Assembly: GCA_017483945.1 (NCBI GenBank)
Contig: JAFUUE010000025.1
Span: 1 to 52,335, forward strand
Direction: 5' to 3'
Source: Paludibacteraceae bacterium
GTDB lineage: Bacteria > Bacteroidota > Bacteroidia > Bacteroidales > Paludibacteraceae
Length of the DNA: 52,335 bases
Below are positions 4,773-51,793 of the stretch, piece after piece. Below the pieces are notes generated by a model, which did not search any database, was not told the DNA's origin, and saw only the letters and a program-made list of their open reading frames with translations. How positions within the stretch are numbered: position 1 is the first letter of the stretch; every line of letters begins with the position of its first letter. Made by a program: the position numbers and the translations under genes.

Positions 4773-4847
4773 AGGTGGCAATCGTGGCCTATTCGGGCGG
4801 GTCAGGTAACGGTCAGGTAACGGGTGCGTTCAGCGAGGGGTTCCCAA

Positions 4848-4909
4848 AGCTGACCCGAAGCTGACCCGAAGCTGACCCGAAGCTGACCCGAAGCTGACCC
4901 GAAGCTGAG
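4848..4909. repeat. 11-bp tandem repeat array (five units plus a partial)
   Basis: Five exact copies of AGCTGACCCGA run from 4848 to 4902, followed by a 7-bp partial unit. The array is non-coding. It sits between related 11-bp-period words on both sides. Confidence 0.9.
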
Positions 4910-5036
4910 AGACGGAAAAGGCTGACTTTCAGGGTGCTGAATGGGTCAGGTCTGTTCCAGGTCTGTTCCAGGTCCGTTAGGGGGGCTGAGTTTGAGCCGG
5001 TTAGCGCATGTTTTTCCAAAAAAAATGCGCCAAGTG

Positions 5037-5067
5037 TTGCGGCATTGGAAAAGATTTTGTAACTTTG
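5037..5067 (+). promoter_or_regulatory. Promoter for the glycoside hydrolase cluster
   Basis: TTG at 5037-5039 and TAACTTTG at 5060-5067 are spaced 20 bp apart. The predicted start near 5074 leaves a leader of roughly 80 nt. Confidence 0.75.
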
Positions 5068-5155
5068 CAGGACATAAGCGCTGTACGCCCCGGAGAACGT
5101 CGGGAAAGCGTCGGCCTGAGAAGAAGAACACATAAAACCCTAAAAAACCATTACC

Positions 5156-7303
5156 ATGAAACGTTCTATTCTGCTACCTTTGGGCATCGCATGCACGGTT
5201 GCACTGTGCCTGTCAAGTTGCGGTAATTCTACCCAAGTAAGTATGCGTCAGGTTGTTACAGGCGAGCCCATCATGCCTGCCCTGATGGGTGCCGACTCCA
5301 CGCACGTTGTTTTCACGGACTATGTTCCGTCGCTGGTCAAGGGAGGCTTTGACCAAGTATGGATAGACAATCTGAACTGCTCGGAATATGTTGAGCGTGT
5401 GGATATTGCCAACGACATGATAGCCGAGCCGGATGCCGCTCCGCGTGTGCATCTGCTGTCTTTCAATCGCGGTTCGGACTGGGTGTCCGTGCCGGTTCTG
5501 CCCCATTGCGCCCGTCAGCAGGGTCTGTACACCTGCGGCGCCGATGCAGACCATATCTACCTGAGTTTCAAGAATCAGCCTGCTTATGTCAACTGGACCA
5601 TGTTCTGGCAGAACAGCTGTATCGAGTTCGAGCAGCCGACCGCTCCGGCCGAATCGGGCATGTGGGTACTCCCCTTCCCCGCCGAAGCGCGCGGGCACCA
5701 GGGCCGCTCCTATATCCGCATCTACGCGACCGACTCGGATGTGCTGTACAACGACGTGCTCATTCCTCTGCAAGACGGCGCGGTAGTGACCGATGCGTCG
5801 CAGTTGACCCGCCACGATGCGCAGGCACAGGTGCTCTACTCGCTGATGGTGGACCGTTTCATGAACGGCAACACGGCCAATGATGCCAAACTGAACGACC
5901 CCGAAGTGCTGGATATCGTTGACTACCAAGGCGGTGACTTCGCCGGTATCACGCAGAAGATAGAGGCGGGCTTCTTTGACGAACTGGGTGTGAATACACT
6001 GTGGATAAGTCCTATCACGCAGAACCCGTGGGACGCATGGGGCCGCTACGACTTCGAGTCTGCGGGCACGGCCGACGACGGGACGCCGCTCTACAAGAAC
6101 AAATACGACCCGACACGCCCCTATTCGCGCTTCTCCGGCTACCACGGCTACTGGCCTATCTATGCCACACGCGTGGACAAGCGCTTCGGAACGGACGAGG
6201 AACTCCGCACGTTACTCGCTACGGCGCATGCGCACCAACTGAATGTTATCCTGGACTATGTGGCCAACCACATGCATATCAACTCGCCGACGCTGCAGGC
6301 ACATCCCGACTGGATGACCGACAGCATCCTGCCTGACGGCCGTCGCAACTTCGAGTTGTGGGACGAAGCCCGTCTGACAACATGGTTCGACCGGCATATC
6401 CCGTCGCTGGACCTGGAGCGCGAGGACGTCTATGAGCCGATGACCGACTCGGCCCTGTACTGGCTGCAACAGTTTGATTTTGACGGCTTCCGCCACGATG
6501 CATGCAAGCATATCCCCGAGGTCTATTGGCGCACCCTGACGCAGAAGATGAAGACCCGCTACCCGAACCGCCCGCTGTGGATGATAGGCGAGACCTACGG
6601 CAGTCCGGAGCTTATCGGCTCGTACGTGAAGAGCGGCATGCTGAATGCCCAGTTCGACTTCAACGTCTATTTCACCGCCATCAACGCCCTGGGCGACGAG
6701 GGTAACATGCGCGACATCAACCGCGTGGTGCTGGAGAGCCTCGGCGCGTATGGTTCGCACCACACCATGGGCAATATCACCGGCAACCACGACCAGATAC
6801 GTTTTATCTCGCTGGCGGGCGGCGACCTGACCGAGCGCGAGCGTTACTACAACAACGGCAAGGAAGCCGGTTGGACCCGCGACGTGACCGTTGGTGACAC
6901 GGCCAAGGCCTACAAAGTGGCGCTGCTGCTGCATGTGCTCAACCTGACCATCCCCGGCGTGCCCTGCATCTACCAGGGTGACGAATACGGACAGAGTGGC
7001 GCGAATGACCCCGACAACCGCCATATGATGCGCTTCGACGGTTATAACGAGCACGAAACTGCCCTGCGCGCAGAAGTGCAGCAACTCATCGCAATGCGTC
7101 GCAGCAGCCTGCCGCTGCTCTACGGCGAGTACATCCCCATCTATGCCGACGAGGACATACTGGCCTATGAGCGCGTCTATATGGGCGAGAAAGTGACCGT
7201 GGCGCTCAACAGTTCGGACAAGGAACAGGACAGCCCGCTGGGCAAACTGGCGCCCTACAGCTACCGCATCGAGCAGGCGGCTGTAGCACACAACGCAGAA
7301 TAA
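5156..7303 (+). CDS. GH13 alpha-amylase family lipoprotein (large)
   Basis: This is a predicted surface or periplasmic enzyme cleaving alpha-glucans. A lipoprotein signal ends at C22 (LSSC). Residues of about 30-220 form an N-terminal beta-type module, probably carbohydrate binding. The GH13 catalytic barrel then shows the conserved regions in order: DYVANH, GFRHDA with nucleophile D448, IGET with acid/base E479, and GNHD with D546. A short C-terminal domain closes the 715-residue chain. It resembles neopullulanase/cyclomaltodextrinase-like GH13 proteins in layout, but the exact specificity is not readable. It is the first gene of a cluster with a GH2 enzyme (24-bp gap) and a second GH13. No SusC/SusD pair is adjacent. 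Confidence 0.9.
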   Translation: MKRSILLPLGIACTVALCLSSCGNSTQVSMRQVVTGEPIMPALMGADSTHVVFTDYVPSLVKGGFDQVWIDNLNCSEYVERVDIANDMIAEPDAAPRVHLLSFNRGSDWVSVPVLPHCARQQGLYTCGADADHIYLSFKNQPAYVNWTMFWQNSCIEFEQPTAPAESGMWVLPFPAEARGHQGRSYIRIYATDSDVLYNDVLIPLQDGAVVTDASQLTRHDAQAQVLYSLMVDRFMNGNTANDAKLNDPEVLDIVDYQGGDFAGITQKIEAGFFDELGVNTLWISPITQNPWDAWGRYDFESAGTADDGTPLYKNKYDPTRPYSRFSGYHGYWPIYATRVDKRFGTDEELRTLLATAHAHQLNVILDYVANHMHINSPTLQAHPDWMTDSILPDGRRNFELWDEARLTTWFDRHIPSLDLEREDVYEPMTDSALYWLQQFDFDGFRHDACKHIPEVYWRTLTQKMKTRYPNRPLWMIGETYGSPELIGSYVKSGMLNAQFDFNVYFTAINALGDEGNMRDINRVVLESLGAYGSHHTMGNITGNHDQIRFISLAGGDLTERERYYNNGKEAGWTRDVTVGDTAKAYKVALLLHVLNLTIPGVPCIYQGDEYGQSGANDPDNRHMMRFDGYNEHETALRAEVQQLIAMRRSSLPLLYGEYIPIYADEDILAYERVYMGEKVTVALNSSDKEQDSPLGKLAPYSYRIEQAAVAHNAE

Positions 7304-7327
7304 CATCCAACTCTATACTCTACACAC

Positions 7328-9790
7328 ATGCTGAAGACTATCTTACTGACTATCACCACCCTACTGAGCCAATGGCAGTTCGCCCCGGAGCAGGAGGCAC
7401 ATCAGATGCCTGCTCCCGACGCGCCTGTCTGGCAGGAGGTGCGCATCCCGCACGACTGGGCCATCACCACACCGTTTGACCGGCAGAACGACCTGCAGGA
7501 AGTGGCTGTCGTTCAGAACGGAGAGACCACTGCTACCGCCAAGACCGGCCGTAGCGGCGGCCTGAACTGGATGGGAGCGGCGTGGTATCGTTGCACCCTG
7601 CCTGCGGCTCTGCTGCGTGATACGAGTAGGATATACACCTTATATATAGACGGCGCCATGTCACATGCGCGCGTCTATGCCGACGGCCGGCCGGTCGGCG
7701 GCTGGGAGTACGGGTACAACGCCTTCGAGGTGGACCTGACACAGGCCGTTCGGCGCAAGGCTCCCGGACAGGACATAACGCTGGCTATCCGATTGGAGAA
7801 CTTCCCCGAAGCCAGTCGCTGGTATCCGGGTGCAGGTCTCTATCGCACTGTCAGTCTGCGCAGTAGCCACCGCACCCACATCCCGCTATGGGGCGTATGC
7901 GTGCGCACGCCTGAGGTGAGTGAGCAACAGGCACTGGTCACATGCGATATCGAAGTGGCTCATCCTGTGGCGGGGATGCAGGTGGAGACACATATCTACC
8001 GCGACGGGCGGCATGTAGCCTCCGCTCCTGGACGTTTTGCACAGGTCCGGGTTAACCGGCCTGCACTCTGGTCGCCTGAGAATCCCGCTCTATACGAGGC
8101 ACATAGCCTTATCCTGAAAGACGGTGCCGTGTTGGACTCCTGCGTCACACGATTCGGCATACGCAGCATCTCCTATACCTTGGAGAAGGGTTTTGCCCTG
8201 AACGGACAGCCGCGTAAGTTCCGCGGCGTCTGCCTTCATCACGACCTCGGTCCGCTGGGTGTGGCCGTCTATCCGGACGCCATTCGGCACCAACTGACCC
8301 TACTCAAGGACATGGGCTGCGATGCGGTGCGGACGAGTCATAACATGCCTTGTAGCGAGCTGGTTGCGCTGTGCGAAGAGATGGGGCTCATGCTAATGAT
8401 AGAACCGTTCGACGAATGGACTCGCGCCAAATGCCGCAACGGATACACCAATTGGTTTGACCAATGGGCCGAGCGCGACATGACCAACATGATACGCCAT
8501 TTCCGCAACTCGCCCGCGCTCGTCATGTGGAGTATCGGCAACGAGGTCTGGGAGCAGACGCTGGAGGAGGGCAAACCCATCGCGGCATGGCTGCAGAACA
8601 TATGCCACCGCCTGGACCCGACACGTCCCGTCACCTGCGGCATGGACCAGGCCTACAGCGTCATACGGAACGGTTTTGCCAAGCAACTGGACATACCCGG
8701 CTTCAACTACCGCACGGGACGTTACCTCGAGGCGCACGACAGCCTGCCCGGCCAACTCATCCTCGGCAGCGAGACAGCATCCACCGTCTCCTCGCGCAAC
8801 ACCTACCATTTCCCCGTCGTCATCGCGCCGAACAACCTGCATGACGACATGCAGTCAACGGGTTACGACGTGGAGTACTGCCCGTGGTCGGGTCTGCCCG
8901 AGCAGGATTTTCAGTTGCAGGACGACTACGACTGGACTATCGGTCAGTTCGTCTGGACGGGCTTTGACTACCTGGGCGAACCGTCGCCCTACGACACGGA
9001 TGCGTGGCCGAGCCATAGCTCCTACTTCGGCATCATCGACTTAGCCTCGCTGCCCAAGGACCGCTACTACCTCTACCGCAGTCAGTGGAACAGCCATTCC
9101 CCCACCCTGCACATACTGCCCCACTGGACATGGCCCGGGTGCGAAGGACAAGTGACGCCCGTCTATGTCTATACCTCCTACCCCGAGGCCGAGCTCTTCG
9201 TCAACGGGCAGAGCCAAGGGCGCTTGCGTTTTGCTACGCCCGAGGAGACTGAGCGGTTGCGCAAGGGCGAAGTCATCCCCGGCGTGAGCCGCATGCCCGA
9301 GGTCGGCACCTTTGACATACCCGACTGGGGCAGCGCGCCGCGGCCCGAACTGCTGCCACGCTACCGGCTCATGTGGCACGACGTGACCTACCGGCCCGGC
9401 GAGATAACCGTTGTCGCCTATGACAAGAACGGGCGTCCGGCCGAACGGCAGACCCTCCGCACCGCCGGCAAGCCACACCACCTGCAGGCCACATGGGCCA
9501 ACCGCGACGAGCCCACGCAGGACAACCTGTGCTACCTGACCGTCAGCGTCGTGGACAAGGACGGCAACCTCTGTCCGCAGGCGGACAACAACATCATGAT
9601 ACAGGTGCAGAACGGCGAAGTCCTCGGCATGGCTAACGGCGACCCGACATGCCTCGACCCCTTCCAAACAGGCGACAGCATGCATGCCTTCCACGGGCAA
9701 TGCACCTTCATCGTCCGCCGAGCCGGCGATACACCCACACGCGTCATCCTCACCACGCCCAAAGTGCGCTCCTGCAGAATACTCTTATAA
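7328..9790 (+). CDS. GH2 family glycosidase (beta-galactosidase-like)
   Basis: This is a glycoside hydrolase of family 2, which typically removes terminal beta-galactosyl or similar residues. The 820-residue protein has a short hydrophobic leader (1-14), an N-terminal sugar-binding jelly-roll domain, an Ig-like domain, and a TIM barrel with WSIGNE (acid/base E406) and LGSE (likely nucleophile E482). C-terminal beta domains of the DUF4982/GH2-C type complete it. Substrate cannot be assigned: galactosidase, glucuronidase and mannosidase all share this fold, and the active-site residues favour galactosidase-like members only weakly. The export signal is short and uncertain. It lies between two GH13 amylases, 24 bp after one and 18 bp before the other, so all three are probably co-transcribed. 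Confidence 0.88.
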   Translation: MLKTILLTITTLLSQWQFAPEQEAHQMPAPDAPVWQEVRIPHDWAITTPFDRQNDLQEVAVVQNGETTATAKTGRSGGLNWMGAAWYRCTLPAALLRDTSRIYTLYIDGAMSHARVYADGRPVGGWEYGYNAFEVDLTQAVRRKAPGQDITLAIRLENFPEASRWYPGAGLYRTVSLRSSHRTHIPLWGVCVRTPEVSEQQALVTCDIEVAHPVAGMQVETHIYRDGRHVASAPGRFAQVRVNRPALWSPENPALYEAHSLILKDGAVLDSCVTRFGIRSISYTLEKGFALNGQPRKFRGVCLHHDLGPLGVAVYPDAIRHQLTLLKDMGCDAVRTSHNMPCSELVALCEEMGLMLMIEPFDEWTRAKCRNGYTNWFDQWAERDMTNMIRHFRNSPALVMWSIGNEVWEQTLEEGKPIAAWLQNICHRLDPTRPVTCGMDQAYSVIRNGFAKQLDIPGFNYRTGRYLEAHDSLPGQLILGSETASTVSSRNTYHFPVVIAPNNLHDDMQSTGYDVEYCPWSGLPEQDFQLQDDYDWTIGQFVWTGFDYLGEPSPYDTDAWPSHSSYFGIIDLASLPKDRYYLYRSQWNSHSPTLHILPHWTWPGCEGQVTPVYVYTSYPEAELFVNGQSQGRLRFATPEETERLRKGEVIPGVSRMPEVGTFDIPDWGSAPRPELLPRYRLMWHDVTYRPGEITVVAYDKNGRPAERQTLRTAGKPHHLQATWANRDEPTQDNLCYLTVSVVDKDGNLCPQADNNIMIQVQNGEVLGMANGDPTCLDPFQTGDSMHAFHGQCTFIVRRAGDTPTRVILTTPKVRSCRILL

Positions 9791-9808
9791 TCACCAAAAT
9801 AAACCACA

Positions 9809-11745: not shown

Positions 11746-11747
11746 GA

Positions 11748-13267: not shown

Positions 13268-13463
13268 TTTGCACTTTTTGCACTATTTGCACTTTGAAGG
13301 TGGTAGAAGGTGGTTTAAAATGGTTCAAAATGGTTCAAAATAGTTTAAGGTTGTTTAAAATGGTTCAAAATAGTTTAAGGTTGTTTAAAATGGTTCAAAA
13401 TAGTTTAAGGTTGTTTAAAATGGTTGAAGATGGTTGAAAGTGCAGAAAGTGCAAAAAGTGCAA
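13268..13463. repeat. Decamer array flanked by inverted arms
   Basis: Fourteen contiguous 10-bp units occupy 13301-13440. The types TGGTTCAAAA, TAGTTTAAGG and TTGTTTAAAA alternate with a 30-bp higher-order period. The left arm (13269-13295, TTTGCACT words every 9 bp) and right arm (13437-13463, AAAGTGCA words) are inverted copies matching at 25 of 27 positions. The block could fold into a long stem with the decamers as the loop. Confidence 0.9.
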
Positions 13464-13492: not shown

Positions 13493-13523
13493 TTGCGTAT
13501 GTGCAATTTTTGTAGTACTTTTG
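13493..13523 (+). promoter_or_regulatory. Promoter for the cobalamin-riboswitch transcript
   Basis: TTG at 13493-13495 and TACTTTTG at 13516-13523 are 20 bp apart. The predicted start near 13529 coincides with the first base of the riboswitch P1 stem. Confidence 0.75.
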
Positions 13524-13528
13524 TAGTC

Positions 13529-13713
13529 GCTATCGGTGCCGGGAAGCAGGTGCGAATCCTGCACAGACCCGCTGCTGTGTTTCGCAATCGACCCTCAGAT
13601 TCTATTGTCACTGCCCTGTCGGGTGGGAAGGCATGAGGCAAGAGCGATGAGTCAGAAGACCGACCGATAGCATACGAAGTCGTTAGCCTGCTCTCGAGGA
13701 TTAGAGCCACGAC
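13529..13713 (+). promoter_or_regulatory. Cobalamin riboswitch
   Basis: The aptamer shows the classic conserved blocks: GGTGCC followed by GGGAAGCAGGTGCGAATCC, then CAGACCCGC, and GCGATGAGTCAGAAGAC near the 3' end. The closing stem pairs GCTATCGGT (13529-13537) with ACCGATAGC (13663-13671). A second hairpin at 13679-13713 pairs GTCGT with ACGAC and GCTCT with AGAGC. It ends directly against the GTG start codon, so control is probably translational, by hiding the initiation region when cobalamin is bound. Confidence 0.95.
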
Positions 13714-16301: not shown

Positions 16302-16551
16302 CTCCGCTCTCCGAAAAAGAACTTTCGTAAACTCAAGTTTTTTTTCGGGGGCCATGCGGTACGGGTTTGATACGGACAATGTCTAGGATTGCTACGGGTC
16401 GCGTTCGACTCTCTCGCACACGGACTGCCGCAAAGCGGCATTAAGTGCTCGAGGCCTCCGCTCTCCGAAAAACAACTTTCGTAAACTCAAGTTTTTTTTC
16501 GGGGGCCATGCGGTACGGATTTGATACGGACAATGTCTAGGATTGCTACGG
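16302..16551. repeat. Directly repeated 96-bp hairpin element (two copies)
   Basis: Copy 1 (16302-16397) and copy 2 (16456-16551) differ at two positions. Each contains a long imperfect hairpin: CCGAAAAA with TTTTTCGG, and inside it AACTT with AAGTT. Each ends with words of the type TTGaTACGGAC spaced 11 bp apart. The gap 16230-16682 holds no gene. Confidence 0.85.
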
Positions 16552-16600
16552 ATTTGTACGGGTCGGGGATGGGATATAATAGGGGTGGCTAATAGAGGGA

Positions 16601-16675
16601 GAGCAATAGAAAAGCAATAGAAAAGCAATAGAAGAGCTAAAGAAAAGCAATAGAAGAACTAAAGAAAAGCAATAG
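16601..16675. repeat. 11-bp array of AAAAGCAATAG units
   Basis: Units in strict 11-bp register run as AAAAGCAATAG (16610), AAAAGCAATAG (16621), AAGAGCTAAAG (16632), AAAAGCAATAG (16643), AAGAACTAAAG (16654), AAAAGCAATAG (16665). They are preceded by a 9-bp partial. The array ends just before the stop codon of the leftward gene at 16683. Confidence 0.9.
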
Positions 16676-16682
16676 AAGAGGA

Positions 16683-19088: not shown

Positions 19089-19130
19089 CAGTCGAAATGA
19101 AGTAACGTGCGTGTTGCCCTTGCAGAGTAA

Positions 19131-19175
19131 CATATTAATCACCTACTAATAACATACTAATCACCTACTAAATTC
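19131..19175. repeat. 11-bp array in the mtaB leader
   Basis: The units ATCACCTACTA, ATAACATACTA and ATCACCTACTA stand in 11-bp register, preceded by a related unit with TAACATATTA. The array lies in the predicted 5' leader, shortly before the start codon. Confidence 0.75.
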
Positions 19176-19191
19176 ATACTACTTCAGCCCG

Positions 19192-24736: not shown

Positions 24737-24752
24737 AGATGTGAATAAGATG

Positions 24753-28916
<4,164 letters not shown>

Positions 28917-30393: not shown

Positions 30394-30535
30394 AACAGAC
30401 CTGGAACAGACCTGAAACAGAGCTGACCCTATCAATCGCCAATCAGACAGGCATTTAGCCCGCCCGGGTATGGGTCAGGTTCGGGTCAGGTACGGGTCAG
30501 GTAACGGCCAGGTAACGGTCAGGTAACGGCCGGGC
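30394..30535. repeat. Two 11-bp arrays between converging genes
   Basis: The first array has AACAGACCTGG, AACAGACCTGA and AACAGAGCTGA at 30394-30426. The second has six units at 30470-30535: ATGGGTCAGGT, TCGGGTCAGGT, ACGGGTCAGGT, AACGGCCAGGT, AACGGTCAGGT, AACGGCCGGGC. The GGTCAGG word is shared with 4.8 kb and 50.3 kb. No gene lies in 30338-30546. Confidence 0.9.
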
Positions 30536-36238: not shown

Positions 36239-36319
36239 CGACCGTCGGTCGACCGTCGGCCGACCGTCGGCTTCGGTACGGGAGTGGTACGGGAGGAATG
36301 CGGGAGGAATACGGGGCGC
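36239..36319. repeat. 11-bp arrays between the amidase and mlaD-type genes
   Basis: Three CGACCGTCGG(T/C) units cover 36239-36271. After a 4-bp shift, GTACGGGAGTG, GTACGGGAGGA, ATGCGGGAGGA and ATACGGGGCGC cover 36276-36319. Read on the mRNA (minus) strand these are CCGTACC and CGACGG words, the same vocabulary as at 43.6 kb. Confidence 0.9.
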
Positions 36320-39863: not shown

Positions 39864-40946
39864 ATGCAAAAGACTCTGATTACACTGCTTATGTCAGTGA
39901 TGACTGTAGCCGCAATGGCGCAGCAACCTGTTATTACCTTTACCACTACGGAGCACGACTTCGGCAAGATTAACGAGGCCGACGGCCGTGTGACGACCGT
40001 GTTTGAGTTCAAGAACGAGGGTATGGAGCCGCTGGTTCTGAGCAATGTACGCGCATCGTGCGGGTGCACCACGCCGAAATGGACCAAAGAGCCCGTCGAG
40101 CCCGGCCAGAGCGGCCAGATAACCGTGACCTACAACCCGAACGGCCGTCCGGGACGTTTCCAGAAGACCATCACCGTAACCTCCAACGCCAGCGAGGCTA
40201 CCAAGCGTCTGTATATCAAGGGCGAAGTGATACCCAAGCCCGCCAAACCCGTGAACGCCTACCCCGTACAGATGGGAGAACTGAAACTGAAGAGCAAATC
40301 CGTCGATTTCGGAGAGGTCAAGAAAGGCGCTTCCGCCACCGGCGAGATTGAATATGCCAACCATACCGACCATGATATTCAGGTGGAACTGCGTACCAAT
40401 CAGCGCGATAACTTCCTGCTGTCACAGGTCACACTGGAGACGGTGAAGAAGGGTGAGACCGGCAAACTGATGTTTATCCTGTCCGCCGACGCATGCAAAC
40501 TGTATGGTCCGGTCAAGATGGAGGCGTATGTCGTAGTGAACGGCAAGTTGGAGATGAGCGACGAGTACAAGATTGACCTGAGCGCCGACATCGTAGAGGA
40601 CTTCAGCAGCCTGACTGTGGCTGAGCGTCAGCAGGCTCCTATCGCCACTATCGACGACGAACTGGACTTCGGCGTTATGACCGCCGGCCGCAAATACAGC
40701 CAGATTCTCCAGCTCGGTAATGCCGGAACCAACCCGCTGCAGGTGCGCCGCCTCTACACCACCGATGAGAACATGACCCTCACTTGCGCAAAGAATGTCA
40801 TCAAGTCCGGACGCAAGGGACAGGTGAAGATTGAGATTAACACCAAGCAGATGGAGCCGGGCAAATACACTCGTATCGTGACCGTTATCACCAACGACCC
40901 GAAGACTCCCGTCCGCAATATCAAGGTCAACTGGACCATCCAATAA
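39864..40946 (+). CDS. DUF1573 exported protein
   Basis: The 360-residue protein has a signal peptide (about 1-19, ending AMA-QQ). Three Ig-like repeats of the DUF1573 type follow, each with a (D/E)FG block and a later CGC or similar. The first domain (about 22-118) shows HDFGKI, FKNEG, ASCGCT and GRF.KTI.V.SN. The second (about 135-235) and third (about 262-360) keep DFGEV/DFGVM and the final VTNDP. Such proteins are common in Bacteroidetes and probably bind surface or periplasmic partners. It lies 6 bp before meaB. Confidence 0.88.
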   Translation: MQKTLITLLMSVMTVAAMAQQPVITFTTTEHDFGKINEADGRVTTVFEFKNEGMEPLVLSNVRASCGCTTPKWTKEPVEPGQSGQITVTYNPNGRPGRFQKTITVTSNASEATKRLYIKGEVIPKPAKPVNAYPVQMGELKLKSKSVDFGEVKKGASATGEIEYANHTDHDIQVELRTNQRDNFLLSQVTLETVKKGETGKLMFILSADACKLYGPVKMEAYVVVNGKLEMSDEYKIDLSADIVEDFSSLTVAERQQAPIATIDDELDFGVMTAGRKYSQILQLGNAGTNPLQVRRLYTTDENMTLTCAKNVIKSGRKGQVKIEINTKQMEPGKYTRIVTVITNDPKTPVRNIKVNWTIQ

Positions 40947-40951
40947 GCGCC

Positions 40952-43612: not shown

Positions 43613-43624
43613 CAGGAGCAGACC

Positions 43625-43734
43625 CGTACCGTTCCCGACGGATCCCCGACGGATCTCCGACGGATCTCGGTACCCAACCCGTACCATTCCCGACGGCACA
43701 CCGACGGCACACCGACGGCTGACCGACAGCAGAG
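43625..43734. repeat. Ten-unit 11-bp array between dnaB and asnS
   Basis: Ten contiguous units keep one register over 110 bp. They are CGTACCGTTCC, CGACGGATCCC, CGACGGATCTC (twice), GGTACCCAACC, CGTACCATTCC, CGACGGCACAC (twice), CGACGGCTGAC and CGACAGCAGAG. The CGTACC..TCC unit recurs after five units, so there is a higher-order 55-bp period. Confidence 0.93.
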
Positions 43735-43789
43735 GCTACCGTCAAGGCACCCGAAACCACATACGAAATAACGAAAAATACACCATACA

Positions 43790-45187: not shown

Positions 45188-45199
45188 TATCATAACCAT

Positions 45200-45666: not shown

Positions 45667-45678
45667 TCTCTATATCTA

Positions 45679-48600
45679 ATGAAAAAACTATTCTTCTTGT
45701 TCATTGCGACCTGCCTGACATGCACATGGGCATGCGCTCAGGAGTTGCAGGCTCAGCCGCAAGAGCAATCCGCCGCTACGGCACAACAGCCTACGCGGCT
45801 ACAGGGACGAGTTGTCATCGAAGGCAGCAACACACCCCTTGCAGGAGCTACTGTCACACTCGGTGTGCAGAACATCTCTACAGTCTCCAACCAGACCGGC
45901 GAGTTCTCGCTCACCTACTTGGAACATGGCGACGAGGAAATCATCATTGAGGCCGACGGATTCCAACCGGCTATCGAACTCATCAACCTCTTGCCCAACC
46001 GGCTTAACGACCTCGGCGTCATCTCCATGCAACAGGACATCGCCAAAGAGGCACAGGAAGAAATCCTGATGAACCTGGCCGAGACGGAACTCAATGACGA
46101 CGAGGGTAAGTCGCAGGAGCAGGGAGCCTCCTTCTCCGCCAGCCAGGATGTCTTCAACAACACCACTTCCTTCGCATGGTCTAATGCACGCTATCGCAAC
46201 CGTGGCTACCTCCAGACCTACGAGCAGAACTACATCAACGGCCTCAGTTTCAACTCGGCCGAGCGCGGACAATTCAACTTCTCCGCAATGGGCGGACTCA
46301 ATGATGCAAGCCGTAACAAGGACGTTATCAACAATATCGAAGCCAACGACTTCACCTTCGGAGGCCTCGGAAAAGCCACCAACTACCTGATGAACGCATC
46401 GCGCTTCGCACAGGGATGGAAAGTCGGACTGGCCGGCACGAACCGCAACTACAAAGCGGCTGTCCGCGCTACCTATGCCACCGGCATGCTCCCCAGCGGA
46501 TGGGCCTTCGTCGGGCAACTCGCTTACCGCTTCTCCCCCTATATTGACAACAAGGGTATCATCGGCGAAGGCATCCGCTACAACTCATTCGGATTCTTCT
46601 TCGCCGGCGAGAAAGTCTGGGAAAACGGCAACCGCCTCAACCTCGTAGTCTTCGGCGCACCGACCGAGCGCGGACAGTCCGGCGCTGTCACGCAGGAGGT
46701 GTACGACCTCACAGGCTCTATCAACTATAACCCCTACTGGGGCTATCAGAACGGAGAAGTGCGCAACTCACGCATCGTCCACTCTTTCGACCCCACCGCC
46801 ATCGCCACTTTCGACTGGAAAATCAACAACGATAACCTGCTCAAGTTCGGACTCGGATACCACTATTCTTGGTACTCCAACTCCGCCCTACAGTTCTTCA
46901 ATGCGCCCAACCCCGCCCCCGACTACTACCGCAACATGCCCTCCTTCCTCTGGGATGGACAAATCGTTGCTGCCAACTCGGACCAGTTGTATGACATGAA
47001 GGGCAATAACCCGACCGGCGCACACTATCCCTATGGTAACTTCATCGGAGCAGACCTCAACGGCTACCCCATGGGAAGCGGACATGTCGGTAATGACGGA
47101 CAGGTCCTTGGCCCCTCCATTGATGTCAACACCTACAACGCACTCGTGAACCTCTGGCAGACACGTGACAATCAGGCCACGCAAATCAACTGGGACCTCC
47201 TCTACATGTCCAACCTGGCCAATAACCACAACGACCCCTCCGCCTCTGCTCGCTACATACAGGAGCGCCGCCACAACGACATCCACGAGGGGATTGCCAA
47301 TATCAACTACACCAACACACAGTTCCGCAACCTGAAAATCACCGCAGGACTCGACGCACGCCTCTCGCAAGGTGTACACTTCAAGACGATTGACGACCTG
47401 CTCGGTGGCAACCAATTGATTGACGTGGACCCATTCGCCGACCGTGATATCAAGGAGTTGGCCACTAATACAGGACTCACCCAAGAGGACATCAAGTATG
47501 TCCGCATGAACGATGTCGCCACGGACTACAACACCGTCAAGCACCTGGGAGACCGCTTCGGATATGACTACCGCATCAACATGACCACCGCACGCCTCTG
47601 GGCGCAGAACGAATGGTCGTTCAACGAGGTGGACTTCTACTATGGTCTCCAGTTCACCTACTCCTCCATGCAGCGCACCACCGACATGGTCAACGGACGC
47701 GCTTGGTATCAGGCTTCGCAGATTCACCCCGCACAGGCCGACCTCTACCTCGGACCGGCCGCGGCCACTATCCTCGCACAACAGCAGGCCGGTACACTCC
47801 GGGCAGGCACACGCTGGATCGGCTATCGGCACGACTTCGTGGACCCCGCATTCAAACTCGGTGCCACCTACAAGATTAACGGCCGTAACCGCATTAAGAT
47901 CAACGCTATCGCCCAGACGACCGCCCCGCTCGCACGCAATGCCTATCTCTCTGCGCGCGTACACGACCGCGTCTTGGATAACATCTACACTCACGACCGC
48001 GCTGCCAATCTCGTTGACTATTTCGCCGCCAGCGAGAAGTCCGTCGGAGGCGACCTCACCTACGAGTTCAACTATCCCCTCGTACGCGGTCGTATCACCG
48101 GCTTCTTCACACAGTTCTGGAACGGGTCCGAGATGAACGGCTACTACGATGACGAGGCACGCACCTTCGTCAATCAGGCTATCTCCGGCATCAACCACCG
48201 CCATATGGGTATCGAGGCCGCGGCTGCCGTCAAACTCGGCTCCTACTTCACCCTCACCGGCGCCGTCAATGTCGGCGACTACCGCTACACATCCAACGCC
48301 CTTGCCGTCACCACGGCGGAGAACGGCATGGAGCTCGGACGCAAAGATGGTGAAGTACTCCCCTACTTCGAGGTTCGCGACTCCGTCTATATGAACGGAC
48401 TCCATGTCGCCACAGGACCCCAAATCAGCACCTCGCTCAAGCTCTCCTTCTTCTACAAGATGTGGTTCGCCGACCTCACCGTCAGCTACTACGATTGGAA
48501 CTACCTCAGCGTCGCACCCTCGCGCCGCATGATGGGACTCTACAAGGGCACACGCACCGACGGCACGTATATCAACGGCGGATACTATAACATCCTCGTT

Positions 48601-49020
48601 AACAACGAAGAGACATCCGCTATCATGACCGATGAGAACGGACAGACCGTCTACGACGCATACGGCACACCCAAACTCATCTACCCCTACAACATCATTG
48701 CCGACCAGGAGACACTCACATCACCCAATGTCTGGAACCGCTTCCTCATCGACGCATCCGTCGGCAAACTCATCTACCTACCTAAGCGCCAGTCGCTCTC
48801 TATCAACCTCACCGTCAACAACATCACTAACAACACCCACTTCAAGACCGGCGGCTACCAGCAGTCACGTCTGCCACGCCAGTCCAAACAAGGCGAGTTG
48901 GTATCCGACGGTTCAGGTAATGCCGTGTCGAAAATCACGCCCAATGCCTGGAAATTCCCCTCTAAGTACTACTACGCATGGGGCGTTAACTTCTATCTGT
49001 CTCTCACCTACAAATTCTAA
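45679..49020 (+). CDS. TonB-dependent outer-membrane receptor
   Basis: This is an energy-coupled importer of 1,113 residues. It has a signal peptide (about 1-20), a carboxypeptidase-regulatory-like beta domain (about 38-115, GRVVIEGSNTPLAGATVTLG), a plug region (about 130-240) and a 22-strand-type barrel rich in Tyr, Asn and Gly that ends in NFYLSLTYKF, a canonical outer-membrane end. No SusD gene follows; instead a DUF5689 lipoprotein is 8 bp downstream. The plug is not the strongly conserved SusC type. The substrate is unknown; no cobalamin riboswitch or iron box precedes it. It lies 12 bp after the small gene pair. Confidence 0.92.
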   Translation: MKKLFFLFIATCLTCTWACAQELQAQPQEQSAATAQQPTRLQGRVVIEGSNTPLAGATVTLGVQNISTVSNQTGEFSLTYLEHGDEEIIIEADGFQPAIELINLLPNRLNDLGVISMQQDIAKEAQEEILMNLAETELNDDEGKSQEQGASFSASQDVFNNTTSFAWSNARYRNRGYLQTYEQNYINGLSFNSAERGQFNFSAMGGLNDASRNKDVINNIEANDFTFGGLGKATNYLMNASRFAQGWKVGLAGTNRNYKAAVRATYATGMLPSGWAFVGQLAYRFSPYIDNKGIIGEGIRYNSFGFFFAGEKVWENGNRLNLVVFGAPTERGQSGAVTQEVYDLTGSINYNPYWGYQNGEVRNSRIVHSFDPTAIATFDWKINNDNLLKFGLGYHYSWYSNSALQFFNAPNPAPDYYRNMPSFLWDGQIVAANSDQLYDMKGNNPTGAHYPYGNFIGADLNGYPMGSGHVGNDGQVLGPSIDVNTYNALVNLWQTRDNQATQINWDLLYMSNLANNHNDPSASARYIQERRHNDIHEGIANINYTNTQFRNLKITAGLDARLSQGVHFKTIDDLLGGNQLIDVDPFADRDIKELATNTGLTQEDIKYVRMNDVATDYNTVKHLGDRFGYDYRINMTTARLWAQNEWSFNEVDFYYGLQFTYSSMQRTTDMVNGRAWYQASQIHPAQADLYLGPAAATILAQQQAGTLRAGTRWIGYRHDFVDPAFKLGATYKINGRNRIKINAIAQTTAPLARNAYLSARVHDRVLDNIYTHDRAANLVDYFAASEKSVGGDLTYEFNYPLVRGRITGFFTQFWNGSEMNGYYDDEARTFVNQAISGINHRHMGIEAAAAVKLGSYFTLTGAVNVGDYRYTSNALAVTTAENGMELGRKDGEVLPYFEVRDSVYMNGLHVATGPQISTSLKLSFFYKMWFADLTVSYYDWNYLSVAPSRRMMGLYKGTRTDGTYINGGYYNILVNNEETSAIMTDENGQTVYDAYGTPKLIYPYNIIADQETLTSPNVWNRFLIDASVGKLIYLPKRQSLSINLTVNNITNNTHFKTGGYQQSRLPRQSKQGELVSDGSGNAVSKITPNAWKFPSKYYYAWGVNFYLSLTYKF

Positions 49021-49028
49021 TTGACACT

Positions 49029-50246
49029 ATGAAACAGACTACTAATATACTGCTCTTCGCAGCTACCGTGCTCACAGCGTCGCTCATGCTCTCGTGCCAA
49101 CCCAAAGCATACACCGAAGACGACGTGTTTGCCAAGGAGACGGAACTCGCCGAACTGACCAAGGACGGACGACTCTACCACCTGCAGGAGTTCGTGGACT
49201 CCTTCATGACCGAAGACGGCAACTATATGGACGACTCCACACGCTACCGCACACGATCCACCATCGGCAACGGCATCCAGATGTTCAGCATCGACACACT
49301 GCCCGCCGACGGACCCGGTATCTATATCATGGGACGTGTCACCACCGATGACTACGGAGGAAACTACTATAAAGCACTTGTCATTCAGGAGATTGTCGGT
49401 GGCAAGCAGCAGAACCTGCGCCTGTCTATAGACATAGGATCGGCCGGCGGTACCTACCAGATTGGCCAACTCCTCCTCATCCGTTGCAACGGTCTGGCGG
49501 TCGGACGCTATGCCAACCAGCCCCAGCTCTGCGTGCCTTCCTACAACAACAACACGCTGGCTATGCACGCGGACGAGAAAGTTGGATGGACACCCGGACG
49601 TATCCCCGCGGAGATATTCATCCGTAACACCACCCTCATCGGCACACCCGACGTCAGCAAACTCGTGTACGAAGAGATGACCATGCAGCAGCTCTACGAA
49701 CGCTATCTCAAGGACTATGACGACGCCTCGCTCAAGGCGGCCTCACAACGCCATATCCTCTTCGAGAAAGCACGCGAGATTGATGGCCTCCTCGTACGAG
49801 TCACCGACTGCCACTTCACCGGCCAGTACAGCAAGTACGGCGTGCCCGACACGTGCACCACAGGCGACCCCGAACTCGACCAGAATGCCAACGTCTTTGC
49901 CCCCACAACCACCAACCTCAATTTCCCGCAGGGACGCTTCATCGCCGACCCCTCCGAGAGCATACTCGCCATCGTCTCTACCTCGGAATATGCCAAGTAT
50001 TCGCACTACTATCTCCCCAGTGCTATCACCGTGGACAGTCTGGGTGTGAAGCACTTTGACTACGCGGCCTACTCCGGCTCCGTGGAGGGCATCCTCGGCT
50101 ACTACTTCGACAAGGCGTCCGACCAGGAGGACGCCACGCAGTATAGCTCCTACAAGTGGGCCATCACGCCTCGCGACATGGGAGATATTCACTTCCACGA
50201 CGCACAGGGCAACGACTGGGTTCCCGTTGAGTACAGCAAGAACTGA
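49029..50246 (+). CDS. DUF5689 domain lipoprotein
   Basis: The 405-residue lipoprotein is acylated at C23 (LSC). A DUF5689-like beta domain follows (about 60-250, with GIYIMGRVTTDDYGGNYYKALVIQE, LRLSIDIG, GQLLLIRCNGLAVGRY). The C-terminal part (about 255-405) is another beta domain with several DP and ST pairs. Proteins with this domain are typically surface lipoproteins next to TonB-dependent receptors in Bacteroidetes. Its position 8 bp after the receptor gene makes it the probable outer-face partner, in the place where SusD would be in glycan loci. Confidence 0.85.
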   Translation: MKQTTNILLFAATVLTASLMLSCQPKAYTEDDVFAKETELAELTKDGRLYHLQEFVDSFMTEDGNYMDDSTRYRTRSTIGNGIQMFSIDTLPADGPGIYIMGRVTTDDYGGNYYKALVIQEIVGGKQQNLRLSIDIGSAGGTYQIGQLLLIRCNGLAVGRYANQPQLCVPSYNNNTLAMHADEKVGWTPGRIPAEIFIRNTTLIGTPDVSKLVYEEMTMQQLYERYLKDYDDASLKAASQRHILFEKAREIDGLLVRVTDCHFTGQYSKYGVPDTCTTGDPELDQNANVFAPTTTNLNFPQGRFIADPSESILAIVSTSEYAKYSHYYLPSAITVDSLGVKHFDYAAYSGSVEGILGYYFDKASDQEDATQYSSYKWAITPRDMGDIHFHDAQGNDWVPVEYSKN

Positions 50247-50276
50247 CCTCCCCCACCCGAGCAATCCCGTAGCAGA

Positions 50277-50448
50277 ACCCGTACCTGACCCGTACCTGAC
50301 CCGTACCTGACCCGCCGGGGACGCGGGCGGCTCGCCCGCGAAATCCGTTACCTGACCGTTACCTGACCGTTACCTGACAGGTGCCACTGGGGACGCGGGC
50401 TTTCCGTCTCGGCCACAGACCGCGCCCGCGGATGCGCCAACAGGCGCA
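50277..50448. repeat. 11-bp arrays and GC hairpins after the DUF5689 gene
   Basis: Three ACCCGTACCTG units (50277-50309) lead into the 24-bp hairpin block 50318-50341, an inverted copy of 4749-4772. Then come three (T/A)CCGTTACCTG units (50344-50376), a CGCGGGC...GCCCGCG hairpin (50394-50429), the 15-bp block 50411-50425 shared with 4709-4723, and a small TGCGCC-AACA-GGCGCA hairpin (50433-50448). Confidence 0.9.
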
Positions 50449-50472
50449 CCAACTAACACCAAAGCACACAAC

Positions 50473-50958
50473 ATGAACATATCCTACATAGACATCCTCA
50501 TCCTCCTCCCGCTCTTCCTCGGCCTCGTCCGTGGACTCATGCGCGGGTTGGTCACCGAACTGATTGCCATTCTGGCGGTTATCGTCGGTGTGATAGGCGC
50601 GCGTATATGGGGACCCATGTGCTCAGCATGGCTGCTCAGTCAGTTTAACTGGCCCGATGCCGTATGCGACGTGACGGCCTACTCCCTGCTCTTCCTCGCT
50701 ATCGCTATCCTGCTCAACCTGCTCGGCAAACTCATGTCCAGACTCCTCAAGGTCATCCACTTAGGATGGCTCAACCGACTCCTCGGGGGCGTCTTCGGCG
50801 CACTCAAATGGGCGGTCATCGTCTTGACACTCGTCTTCCTTGTGGACAAACTGGACCAACAGTTCCACTTCATCAAGGAGGATGCCAAGAAGCAGTCTGT
50901 GACCTATGAACCGACTGTCAAATCAGCCAATGCTTGTCTATCTTTCGTTAGGAGCTAA
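50473..50958 (+). CDS. CvpA-family membrane protein
   Basis: The 161-residue protein has four hydrophobic segments (about 5-21, 29-48, 65-85, 100-122). The N-terminal family block YIDILILLPLFLGLVRGLMRGLV and a later LNRLLGGVFGALKW block identify CvpA. In Escherichia coli the protein is needed for colicin V export and for envelope tolerance to bile salts; its molecular activity is unclear. Its last 29 bp overlap the folK start, which suggests coupled translation. Confidence 0.9.
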   Translation: MNISYIDILILLPLFLGLVRGLMRGLVTELIAILAVIVGVIGARIWGPMCSAWLLSQFNWPDAVCDVTAYSLLFLAIAILLNLLGKLMSRLLKVIHLGWLNRLLGGVFGALKWAVIVLTLVFLVDKLDQQFHFIKEDAKKQSVTYEPTVKSANACLSFVRS

Positions 50959-51397
50959 TCTCGGCAATAGAGAGCAGACCATCCGGTCTGCTCTCTTGCT
51001 ACTCGGGCAACGCCTCGGCACCATGCAGCGTTGCTCCTCTTTCTTCTACTCCGACCCTTGGGGATTCGACTCGCCCAACCCCTTCTGCAACGTCTGTGCC
51101 GCCTTTGACACCGACCTCTCTCCCCTCGATTGCCTCCATGCCTGTCAGACCGTCGAACGCCTCTTGGGCAAAGACACAAACCATGCCACCGAGCGTCCTA
51201 TAGACTCTCCCACGCACGCCACAGCAGGCCCTACACCCACCACTCACTACCACGACCGCCCTATCGACATTGACATCATCCTCTTCGGAGACCTCCGAAT
51301 CAACACTCCCGAACTGACCATTCCCCACCCCCTCTACCGTCGGCGCGACTTCGTCCTCATCCCCCTTCGGGAAATTAAGCCGGACGAAAGCGAGTGA
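50930..51397 (+). CDS. folK: 2-amino-4-hydroxy-6-hydroxymethyldihydropteridine diphosphokinase
   Basis: FolK transfers pyrophosphate from ATP to the pterin in folate synthesis. The 155-residue protein starts YLSLGANLGNRE and has the late motif RPIDIDIILFGD and the C-terminal IPHPLYRRRDFVLIPL, both family hallmarks. An extra loop of about 25 residues sits directly before RPIDID, rich in Thr, Pro and His. It contains a second RPID word, so it may be a local duplication. The start at ATG 50930 gives the family N-terminus and overlaps cvpA by 29 bp; an ATG at 50906 is in frame but less likely. Confidence 0.92.
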   Translation: MLVYLSLGANLGNREQTIRSALLLLGQRLGTMQRCSSFFYSDPWGFDSPNPFCNVCAAFDTDLSPLDCLHACQTVERLLGKDTNHATERPIDSPTHATAGPTPTTHYHDRPIDIDIILFGDLRINTPELTIPHPLYRRRDFVLIPLREIKPDESE

Positions 51398-51507
51398 AAA
51401 AGAGCCTCACCGACACCAAAAGACTGCCCGTAAGCAGCCTACAGACTGTTCACAAATAGCCGAAAACTGCCCGCAAAGCATTTTTTGTGCAAAAAAATGC
51501 AGAAAAA

Positions 51508-51539
51508 TTTGCGTATGTGAATAAAAAGTCGTACCTTTG
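51508..51539 (+). promoter_or_regulatory. Promoter for tRNA-His
   Basis: TTTG at 51508-51511 and TACCTTTG at 51532-51539 have 20 bp between them. The predicted start is about 20 bp before the mature tRNA. Confidence 0.8.
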
Positions 51540-51565
51540 CACCCGCTTTTGAAAGAAAGCTACAC

Positions 51566-51644
51566 GGTGTGCGTGGCCGAGTGGTCGAAGGCGCCAGATT
51601 GTGGTTCTGGTATATCGCAGGTTCGAACCCTGTCGCACACCCCA
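51566..51644 (+). tRNA. tRNA-His (GTG)
   Basis: A complete cloverleaf is present. Acceptor GTGTGCG (51567-51573) pairs with CGCACAC, with an encoded extra G at -1 (51566) opposite discriminator C at 51641, the identity pair of tRNA-His. The D arm is GCC...GGC. The anticodon stem CCAGA/TCTGG has loop TTGTGGT, giving anticodon GTG. The T arm is GCAGG-TTCGAAC-CCTGT. CCA is encoded at 51642-51644. The variable loop reads as six nucleotides, one more than usual. Confidence 0.95.
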
Positions 51645-51681
51645 AAGACTCAGCATCCAACGATGTTGAGTCTTCCTTTTT
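51645..51681 (+). terminator. Intrinsic terminator after tRNA-His
   Basis: A 13-bp stem (AAGACTCAGCATC with GATGTTGAGTCTT, one G-T pair) has a CAAC loop and is followed by CCTTTTTC. Confidence 0.92.
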
Positions 51682-51694
51682 CTACCACCCTCCC

Positions 51695-51793
51695 CACCTC
51701 ATATCCACTTCATATCCTCCGCATCTCCACCGCACACCCACCGCACCCTCGCCTCACCACCACCTCACCCCTGCCTCATCACCACCTCACCCT
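51695..51793. repeat. Nine-unit pyrimidine-rich 11-bp array
   Basis: Units in 11-bp register include CACCTCATATC, CACTTCATATC, CACCGCACACC, CGCCTCACCAC, CACCTCACCCC, TGCCTCATCAC and CACCTCACCCT. The array lies in a 560-bp gene-free stretch after tRNA-His. Further on, near 51880-51930, ATCGCC words recur every 9 bp around ATATCG palindromes. Confidence 0.8.

Follow-up and report, generated by a model that had tools for sequence, protein, structure and literature searches.

Short tandem arrays between the genes of a Paludibacteraceae-like gut bacterium and of its relatives keep an 11-bp period while the repeated words themselves are replaced. The period outlives the sequence, and this persistence of spacing suggests that something reads or builds intergenic DNA at intervals of about one helical turn. 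We give even credence to the arrays being dispersed, non-coding elements resembling REP or MITE elements, in which the conserved trait is the 11-bp register and not the sequence, with a cooperative DNA-binding protein or a transposase as their probable reader.

Arrays with an 11-bp period between genes

The window, i.e. the whole stretch of 52,335 bp analyzed here, is one contig of a Paludibacteraceae-like (Bacteroidales) genome drafted at 2.0 Mb, and every genome analyzed is a draft assembly. An earlier note on the window had listed nine sites with 11-bp arrays in gene-free DNA. Tandem Repeats Finder (TRF) returned period-11 or period-22 rows at eight of the nine, and all listed sites lie between genes according to our own codon-usage script, which replaced a published gene finder and places coding and intergenic borders approximately. 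The site at 16345-16570, marked weak in the note, gave no TRF array and holds a block repeat instead. The sites and the additional rows are:

4801 to 4823, plus strand: CAGGT-family array, GGTCAGGTAAC in 2.2 copies (TRF row 4800-4823; family matches)
4843 to 4978, plus strand: E1 element with a left array of six CCCGAAGCTGA units (ACCTG/AGCTG orientation), a 39-bp spacer and a right array of three CAGGTCTGTTC units (TRF 4843-4908 and 4947-4978)
16340 to 16570, plus strand: block recurring at an offset of 154 bp (14 x 11), with TACGG at 11/22-bp steps, not a TRF array
16602 to 16680, plus strand: AGCAATAGAAA / 22-mer array without a family match (TRF)
19128 to 19181, plus strand: AATCAC-type array, TAACATACTAATCACCTACTAA in 2.4 copies, of a family found in many same-genus genomes (TRF)
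30394 to 30531, minus strand: E1-type element with arrays of three AACAGACCTGA and five GGTCAGGTAAC units (TRF 30394-30426 and 30467-30531)
36239 to 36271, minus strand: CCGACGG-family array of three CGACCGTCGGC units (TRF)
36277 to 36315, minus strand: array of TACGGGAGGAA in 3.5 copies, with CCGTACC words on the minus strand, adjoining 36239 to 36271 (TRF)
43624 to 43734, plus strand: CCGTACC and CCGACGG units in a single unbroken 11-bp register (TRF 43635-43668 and 43690-43731)
50277 to 50314, minus strand: CAGGT/CCGTACC array, ACCCGTACCTG in 3.5 copies (TRF)
50315 to 50344, no strand assigned: GC-rich hairpin GCGGGCGGCTCGCCCGC, recurring beside arrays elsewhere in the genome
50345 to 50378, minus strand: CAGGT array, CCGTTACCTGA in 3.1 copies (TRF)
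51693 to 51797, plus strand: diverged array of about 104 bp, CCACCTCACCC-like, period 11/22, no indels reported, after tRNA-His (TRF)
51978 to 52004, plus strand: CATTAGTTAAC in 2.5 copies, absent from the earlier list (TRF)
24737 to 24757 and 39981 to 40002: two-copy period-11 rows, absent from the earlier list (TRF)

The two copies of the block, 154 bp apart, are identical at 60 of 81 positions, and the block resembles the 22-mer GGTACGGGTATTGTCTAGGATT present elsewhere in the genome. The array at 43624 to 43734 is flanked by a DnaB-family gene and a class II tRNA-synthetase gene. The words that the earlier note saw shared between sites are real but short, and also occur at many other positions of the window.

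The excess of period 11 extends beyond the window. In a sample of 406 kb, comprising the window and 20 further stretches of its genome, we found 161 intergenic tandem arrays. Period 11 is dominant with 68 arrays versus 15 of period 7, and 12 arrays have period 22 (80 of period 11 or 22 together). Dinucleotide shuffles of the intergenic set yielded 0.8 period-11 and 0.2 period-22 arrays per shuffle, 0.8 being the highest period-11 figure for any intergenic set, and pure chance is thus rejected as the origin. Eight of the 20 stretches had been chosen for holding a match of an earlier repeat similarity search. The excess is independent of this choice because the 12 other stretches (195 kb) show it as well, with period 11 in 26 and period 22 in 4 of 76 intergenic arrays. 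Among 20 control genomes of the same order, none of 18 intergenic arrays had period 11 or 22; two A/T-rich period-11 arrays were both within DNA called coding.

Autocorrelation and the comparison of arrays with shuffles, as proposed earlier, bore out the expected pattern in the window's genome, where a lag-11 peak is restricted to intergenic DNA and arrays exceed the shuffles. Intergenic peaks occur at lags 11, 22 and 33 (z of 19, 14 and 9 versus the median lag), with lags 2, 9, 10 and 20, among others, likewise at z of at least 8. Coding DNA shows the codon period and no signal at lag 11. Called-coding DNA held three arrays of period 11 or 33, all of the CCGACGG or CAGGT family, which are probably gene miscalls. 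The expectation did not extend to relatives, where the intergenic lag-11 peak was not above neighboring lags, a comparison confounded by missed coding DNA with its 3-bp signal.

Arrays are short, often of about three units (33 bp), and the median length of 117 period-11 arrays is 34 bp. They occupy 9 of 19 convergent, 7 of 23 divergent and 27 of 140 tandem gaps. Promoter operators are rejected as an explanation, since arrays occur in every gap type and, by share, most often in convergent gaps.

Dispersed families and unit turnover

A few dispersed families, CAGGT-N6, CCGACGG-N4 and AATCAC-N5, account for most arrays in the genome of the window, and dispersed families were also found in each of the two relatives checked. 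In the window, the CAGGT family is present at 4801, 30394 and 50277, and the CCGACGG/CCGTACC family at 36239, 43625 and in parts of 50277. Of 46 pairs of CCGTACC and CCGACGG words, which are not independent, 34 are in phase at 11 bp. Families and homogenization inside arrays are evident, and at locus L190 of genome G062 blocks morph into one another inside a single register. Part of the shared 11-bp period is common descent of a few dispersed families. Unrelated words recur across species, but not every site in the window is unrelated to the others as the earlier note had it, since the CAGGT and the CCGACGG/CCGTACC sites form families. A single ancient family is disfavored, given unrelated words with the same period in many species.

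As in MITEs, non-coding copies are dispersed at unrelated sites. Regarding inverted ends, E1 has inverted arrays, and the modules of genome G106 have conserved flanks and no clear inverted pair. Of 20 G106 module copies fetched, 18 have three units, neither more nor fewer. The module's flanks, GCTG and CTGTC, carry CTG words 44 bp apart on the consensus by our own count. Degenerate outer AATCAC units of G106 lose the core (AATTAC, AATAAC) and retain CTACT, which does not speak for the AATCAC core as the protein contact.

Intergenic DNA of eight close species pairs had 132 indels per 857 substitutions. Tandem indels made up 22 of the 132, with lengths of 1, 2, 7 and 14 bp and none of 11 bp, in pairs that are mostly of 7-bp species. 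Tandem units of 7 and 14 bp were gained or lost between close species. Among imperfect arrays returned by TRF, which is biased towards arrays free of indels, 3 of 47 with period 11 contained indels in the window's genome. In relatives, 4 of 50 such arrays with period 11 and 20 of 115 with period 7 contained them. Period-22 arrays of relatives had indels in 5 of 16 cases.

Spacing is held across the E1 spacer

The inverted words of the E1 element at 4843 to 4978, which has related copies, are 44 bp apart, and those of the E1-type element at 30394 to 30531 are 55 bp apart. With a strict core (ACCTG/AGCTG followed by CAGGT/CAGCT), distances are 44 bp (10 copies), 55 bp (2) or 77 bp (3), and thus multiples of 11 in 15 of 15. 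Four of the five copies at 55 or 77 bp shift to 44 bp if their first unit may be decayed. Under a relaxed core, 17 of 18 elements have their nearest inverted words at a distance of 44 bp and the remaining one at 55 bp. Of these 18, 13 stem from similarity matches, or stretches holding such matches, to a query that spanned the spacer and may favor intact spacers. The five copies outside this search (the window's two, L119, L213 and L219) have distances of 44, 55, 44, 44 and 44 bp.

The E1 spacer is diverged and not repetitive. The 39-bp spacers of the ten strict 44-bp copies carry 122 differences from their consensus, with a mean pairwise difference of 18.2. Applying the indel rate of the close species pairs to these 122 differences, about 19 indels would be expected, a rough number for spacers chosen as related copies of 44-bp length. 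Other arrangements are not phased, with multiples of 11 in one of five convergent and three of eight same-strand neighbor pairs. The earlier argument that simple slippage would hardly fix one period gains weight, as unrelated words share 11 across species and a non-repetitive spacer is held too.

Turnover of words across the genus

Of 101 same-genus genomes, 62 contain AATCAC-N5 triplets, the window's own among them, versus 1 of 245 genomes elsewhere in the order. The control pattern of the search, run backward, also matches in some genomes. The N5 differs from species to species. No AATCAC triplet was found in 39 of the 101 same-genus genomes. At ten AATCAC loci inspected by eye, at least four neighborhoods recur in more than one species, namely glnS-lpxA, mraZ-rsmH, rpe and one without a name in L302 and L309 (names read off translations), and no regulator gene stood out beside the arrays. 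The query for the glnS-lpxA set held an AATCAC array, and the set is therefore biased towards AATCAC. With a viral origin in view, viral contigs were searched for the AATCAC pattern, which hit 52 stretches and was present twice in three of these.

Among the best 30 loci examined in each orthologous search, one gap carries unrelated 11-bp arrays in four species and 7-8-bp arrays in other relatives. Both arrays checked in this gap are dispersed families within their own genome. The first had 47 matches there (its own place and several per site counted) and the second had 5, with none for either in the other two genomes searched. Orthologous gaps are too diverged between species to define an empty site, and the flanks of a second gap (window 50247-50472) are too diverged for use.

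In relatives, period 7 (with 8, 14 and 21) is at least as common as 11, and periods 9, 10, 12 and 13 are rare (3, 4, 3 and 1 of 153 intergenic arrays in the named set). In the genus sample, 16 of 28 period-7 arrays fell in called-coding DNA. The constant period first noted in the window is real and intergenic, but it partly reflects descent of dispersed families, and 7 bp is preferred in relatives as well.

Possible origins of the 11-bp register

The putative protein reading the arrays might be a cooperative DNA-binding protein, with a lattice of the ribbon-helix-helix or ParR/Omega-like kind, or else a transposase assembling on repeated sites. At every helical turn it would contact a short core, and the element would depend on this binding for its spread or function. 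If core and protein drifted together between species, words would change and spacing would stay. No DNA-binding or mobilizing protein was identified for the arrays. A bolder and more doubtful proposal is that the genus inherits the step length itself. The helical register of dispersed elements could be set by a chromosomal protein that forms a lattice, or by two such proteins stepping 11 and 7 bp, with words free and spacing fixed between species.

Neutral satellites are the main rival to a bound element, and we consider them possible at clearly lower confidence. A few ancestral arrays would have spread by transposition or gene conversion, with no binding protein and no function. Slippage would homogenize words by gain and loss of units, substitutions would replace words, and the period would survive because only rare indels can alter it. 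The short arrays, the families with homogenization inside arrays, the morphing blocks at L190 and the 7- and 14-bp unit turnover all agree with such a process. However, the non-tandem E1 spacer keeps its length in nearly all copies despite many substitutions (with the sampling bias noted), periods close to 11 are rare in relatives, and unrelated words of one period, present at a single gap in several species, would call for arrays of great age or for replacement time and again. Improbable in our judgment is a mutational process with a fixed step, in which replication or repair, e.g. the ligation of displaced flaps of RNA-primer length, makes 7- or 11-bp duplications tolerated only between genes. 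Such a process would account for preferred lengths with unrelated words across many species. It would also fit the near restriction of arrays to intergenic DNA in the window's genome, as frame-shifting lengths predict. Yet none of the 22 tandem indels was of 11 bp, if mostly in 7-bp species, and many arrays did not form where they now lie, being copies of dispersed modules.

We find it quite improbable that the arrays act as RNA, whether as transcripts recognized by an RNA-binding regulator or through a phased RNA structure. The window's two E1 copies have more stable folds than their shuffles for one strand or both (z of -2.0 and -2.8), as does one AATCACGCG array (z of -2.9), and the accessible part of one paper suggests a role in translational regulation for the heptamer repeats of Beggiatoaceae (PMC4679880). 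But the ten remaining folds range from z of -2.1 to +1.4, and a 5'-leader role does not suit many arrays because convergent gaps hold arrays too. Of the two possibilities raised in the earlier note, phased protein binding fits the spacing held over a non-repetitive spacer, but RNA structure is rejected as the common factor, the 13 folds being mixed (z of -2.9 to +1.4). The ordinary periodicity of A/T tracts at about 11 bp, tied to supercoiling, is disfavored and appears very improbable. The available portion of the source describes this signal as characteristic of bacterial genomes (PMC4132750), and a broad wave of 10-11 bp is indeed seen for intergenic AA/TT pairs of the window's genome (1.17-1.18 at lags 10-11). 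The arrays, however, are near-exact, sharp at 11 and mostly G+C-rich in this genome. CC/GG/CG/GC pairs also peak at lag 11 (1.17), so that the signal is not confined to AA/TT, and the same-order controls have their only period-11 arrays, both A/T-rich, in called-coding DNA.

What usually defines a repeat family is its sequence. This genus instead keeps the period and swaps the sequence at many loci and in many species, which amounts to a natural experiment on the selection of spacing in non-coding DNA. A protein lattice, if true, would represent an undescribed chromosome-organizing or mobilizing system of rumen Bacteroidales. A mutational cause would mean a bacterial process with a fixed step, and an inherited step length would resemble, at the level of DNA, a scaffold whose bricks can be exchanged.

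Comparison with known systems

A literature search, largely without subscription papers, found no description of an 11-bp intergenic array system. REP elements are dispersed and intergenic and contain a GC-rich hairpin. The arrays are likewise dispersed and intergenic with a GC-rich hairpin recurring beside them, but a tandem 11-bp register is, to our knowledge, no feature of REP elements. In a search of 12 genomes, no RAYT-type (Y1) transposase was found in the array-rich G062, G070, G106, G012, G010 and G121. The window's genome had one match, leaving six of the seven array-rich genomes searched without one. A RAYT/REP origin is rejected, as the presence of Y1 transposases in these 12 genomes does not follow array abundance.

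The plasmid centromere parC of R1, bound by ParR, contains 11-bp repeats. The parS of pSM19035, bound by Omega, has 7-10 WATCACW repeats per site in the part of the source available, and this motif is close to the AATCAC core of the arrays (PMC9499535). Such ribbon-helix-helix centromeres are likewise made of short non-palindromic repeats, in their case with one dimer per repeat as far as the source describes them. Centromeres differ in having few sites at par promoters, whereas the arrays occupy tens of chromosomal sites and the core occurs in part of the genus.

The STRR of cyanobacteria are comparable intergenic heptamer repeats. As in this class, short tandem units lie between genes at many sites, although in the window's genome the dominant unit length is 11 bp and not 7 bp, a period common in relatives. 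TAACTGA heptamer direct repeats are described as intergenic in Beggiatoaceae, Cyanobacteria and five Bacteroidetes including Paludibacter (accessible part of PMC4679880). According to the same part, they too form short tandem arrays without coding function in many intergenic places, with few copies in most of them and a patchy occurrence among lineages (PMC4679880). The 7-bp arrays of the genus look like the same kind. The heptamer system differs in its unit of 7 bp and in the single word followed, whereas here the period is 11 and many words share one step, with inverted arrays at fixed spacing and word turnover between species. In the same order, the BrickBuilt MITE of Porphyromonas gingivalis (Bacteroidales) has 19 copies in one strain, with tandem units without spacers, a leader, a tail and small inverted-repeat ends, as given in the available text (PMC4596501). 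BrickBuilt, so described, is intergenic, dispersed and built of tandem units like the arrays, but it has a 23-nt unit and one sequence family, whereas the arrays have 11-bp units in several families per genome that are replaced between species.

Distribution of the 11-bp arrays

Contig C33, the window, comes from a draft genome of 1.99 Mb (93 contigs, 89% complete). We call the host Paludibacteraceae-like because the best named relatives of its alpha-amylase-domain protein (5156-7303) are Paludibacteraceae/Bacteroidales MAGs; the 80 best named matches share 54-61% protein identity and are mainly of rumen and gut origin. The earlier note listed nine gene-free sites of period 11. All are intergenic by our own gene caller, and eight have TRF rows of period 11 or 22. 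Window features, in forward-strand coordinates, are:

4843..4978, copy of E1, an element with two inverted CAGGT-family arrays flanking a spacer
13311-13439, 30-bp unit x3.4 (98%), sub-period 10; a cobalamin riboswitch lies downstream at 13517-13682
16345-16570, the listed site marked weak; no TRF row, though TACGG words step by 11 or 22 bp and a block recurs 154 bp (14 x 11) further on
30394..30531, second copy of E1
43613-43789, gap between a DnaB-family gene and a class II tRNA-synthetase gene
51978-52004, additional TRF row of period 11/22, outside the list

Arrays of 10 bp also occur elsewhere in this genome, one of them 217 bp long (L119 1032-1248).

Across the window and 20 further stretches of its genome (405,904 bp; score at least 40), 68 of 161 intergenic arrays have period 11 and 12 have period 22, versus 0.8 and 0.2 in dinucleotide shuffles of that intergenic DNA. 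Base-level autocorrelation of this intergenic DNA peaks at lags 11, 22 and 33. Eight of the 20 stretches contained, at selection, a match of a similarity search whose query spans the E1 spacer; the 12 chosen without such a match alone give 26 period-11 and 4 period-22 arrays out of 76. Three arrays were called coding (two of period 11, one of period 33), and these are members of the CCGACGG and CAGGT families. In a same-order control of 20 stretches from 20 other genomes (72 kb called intergenic), all 18 intergenic arrays have periods other than 11 and 22. A/T-rich arrays of period 11 occur there twice, both times in DNA called coding.

Among 153 intergenic arrays at 80 loci of named relatives, periods 11, 7, 8 and 14 account for 31, 35, 16 and 15, and periods 9, 10, 12 and 13 for 3, 4, 3 and 1. 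In same-genus genomes (20 stretches, 60 arrays), period 7 accounts for 12 arrays and period 11 for seven. Such arrays are a trait of the clade, and two steps, 11 and 7, are preferred. Counting against this, base-level autocorrelation of the relatives' intergenic DNA gives no lag-11 peak above neighbouring lags; a 3-bp signal from missed coding DNA is the probable reason. The genus is characterised by intergenic arrays of 7 and 8 bp as much as by those of 11 bp (e.g. L370, L371, L375, L383), and close species differ by tandem 7- and 14-bp steps.

Dispersed families and word turnover

Clustering 30 period-11 units from the named relatives at no more than 2 mismatches gives 22 groups, and most of these words are therefore unrelated. 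The 68 arrays of the window's genome form 18 clusters, the five largest holding 19 (GGTCAGGTAAC), 12 (CAGGTCTGTTC), 6 (CGACCGTCGGC), 6 (CCGACGGATCT) and 6 (AATCACGCGAC). Three cores cover most of them: CAGGT-N6, AATCAC-N5, and CCGACGG-N4 with CCGTACC-N4. CAGGT-N6 triplets (three units) have 106 pattern matches in the window's genome and are present in 15 of 101 same-genus genomes, its own included. AATCAC-N5 triplets have 80 matches there and occur in 62 of 101 same-genus genomes versus 1 of 245 outside the genus; a backward-read AATCAC control also matches some genomes, with a maximum of 102 in G062, where the unit is nearly symmetric. CCGACGG and CCGTACC words within 80 bp of each other keep one common phase in 34 of 46 pairs (10 others at phase 10, 2 at phase 1), and the bases after CCGACGG run ATCC, ATCT, ATCT in five of seven displayed arrays of that type. 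Internal order is often kept between copies, and modules are therefore copied whole.

Words turn over at orthologous positions. At the DnaB-family/tRNA-synthetase gap we compared the best 30 loci of 137 matching genomes, 23 of which (own included) have a gap of at least 20 bp. At a TRF score of at least 30, these carry arrays of period 7 (seven), 8 (three), 11 (five), 16 (two) and 9, 10, 14 and 22 (one each), with at most 0.3 per period in shuffles. Two period-11 arrays belong to the window's species and one each to the relatives G068, G395 and G106, and the units of the four species (CCGACGGATCT, ATGTTTGTCAT, TCATAACATCC, CTACCGTATCA) look unrelated. The G106 array matches its own genome 47 times and the G395 array its own five times; neither matches the other's genome or G068. 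The G106 module has exactly three units in 18 of 20 fetched copies, with common flanks GCTG and CTGTC whose CTG words lie 44 bp apart on the consensus. In 551-bp stretches around these copies, 32 of 52 arrays are of period 11, several with further unrelated words. At the glnS-lpxA gap (gene names are our reading), in a locus set biased towards AATCAC, AATCAC-type units with differing inner bases are kept in 10 of 22 gaps of at least 20 bp; the other 12 include 7-bp arrays in four, a 14-bp array in one and an unrelated 11-bp array in one. The arrays are dispersed intergenic modules, often of three units, and their 11-bp register is common to unrelated words.

G106 intergenic DNA (L438-L457) is crowded with unrelated 11-bp families (TACCCTCGCAG, TCTCCCGCTCA, GCTTATCCTTA and others). 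A GC-rich, REP-like hairpin type, CGCGGGCGAGCCGCCCGCGTCCCAGG, adjoins CAGGT or CCGACGG arrays (window 50315-50344, L118, L110, L113, L106, L116). The unit AGTGGCGCGAG occurs both in the window's genome and in one other named genome (L100 19028-19143, L101 2706-2823, L113 145-174, L074 about 1500-1523); in L100 and L101 it follows an TATCTTTG promoter-like stretch and a common leader, an arrangement that suggests a dispersed transcribed leader. In G122, seven of eight loci at different sites (L182-L189) share a leader of roughly 100 bp that includes a promoter-like CTTTG stretch; ATCAC units spaced at 11 bp come after it. These loci may represent a family of leaders or small RNAs.

Spacing of E1 and possible mechanisms

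E1 consists of about three units ending ACCTG, a spacer, and about three units starting CAGGT. In ten aligned copies the main conserved spacer word is GGCTGA, and GGCTGATTAGCAG, a partial dyad, occurs in three. With a strict core, the inverted words lie 44 bp (10), 55 bp (2) or 77 bp (3) apart; when a decayed first unit is allowed, 17 of 18 copies have their nearest inverted words at 44 bp and one at 55 bp. The ten strict 44-bp copies have 122 spacer positions differing from the consensus, and spacing is preserved across this diverged spacer; other intergenic DNA of eight close species pairs has 132 indels per 857 substitutions. The 17 of 18 strengthens the spacing result, and sampling weakens it: for 13 of the 18 copies the route was a similarity match, or a stretch containing one, from a query that spans the spacer. 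The five reached otherwise (the window's two, L119, L213, L219) measure 44, 55, 44, 44 and 44 bp. Array pairs in other arrangements show no phasing (multiples of 11 in one of five convergent and three of eight same-strand pairs), which would be expected were they separate elements.

The main rival explanation is neutral satellite turnover, in which the period is simply inherited. The E1 spacer is not readily accounted for by such turnover, and E1 is the best evidence for a held spacing beyond repeat history. The earlier note proposed phased protein binding or a phased RNA structure; RNA folds of the arrays are inconsistent and lend no support to the latter as the common factor. We suggest that a protein, perhaps a transposase complex or one that binds cooperatively, would touch each array once per helical turn, and that the modules may have spread among sites. 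An array of three 11-bp units would then span three turns, and E1, with its arrays inverted, would fit two such filaments face to face. The relatives' 7-bp arrays may represent the same system using another step or protein, three 7-bp units spanning 21 bp, or two turns. RAYT transposases, considered as a source, do not track the arrays in the 12 genomes searched.

Comparison with known systems

For the 7-bp step, Omega on WATCACW heptads offers an analogue (PMC9499535). The Omega word resembles the AATCAC core, a likeness that is a lead only. In an open-access library that lacks most subscription papers we found no account of 11-bp intergenic arrays, so this negative is weak evidence. Among the published elements compared, the nearest relatives are heptamer arrays and the 23-nt BrickBuilt MITE. 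We rate the arrays as a variant of dispersed intergenic tandem-repeat elements, unusual in that it is the period, rather than the sequence, that is conserved.
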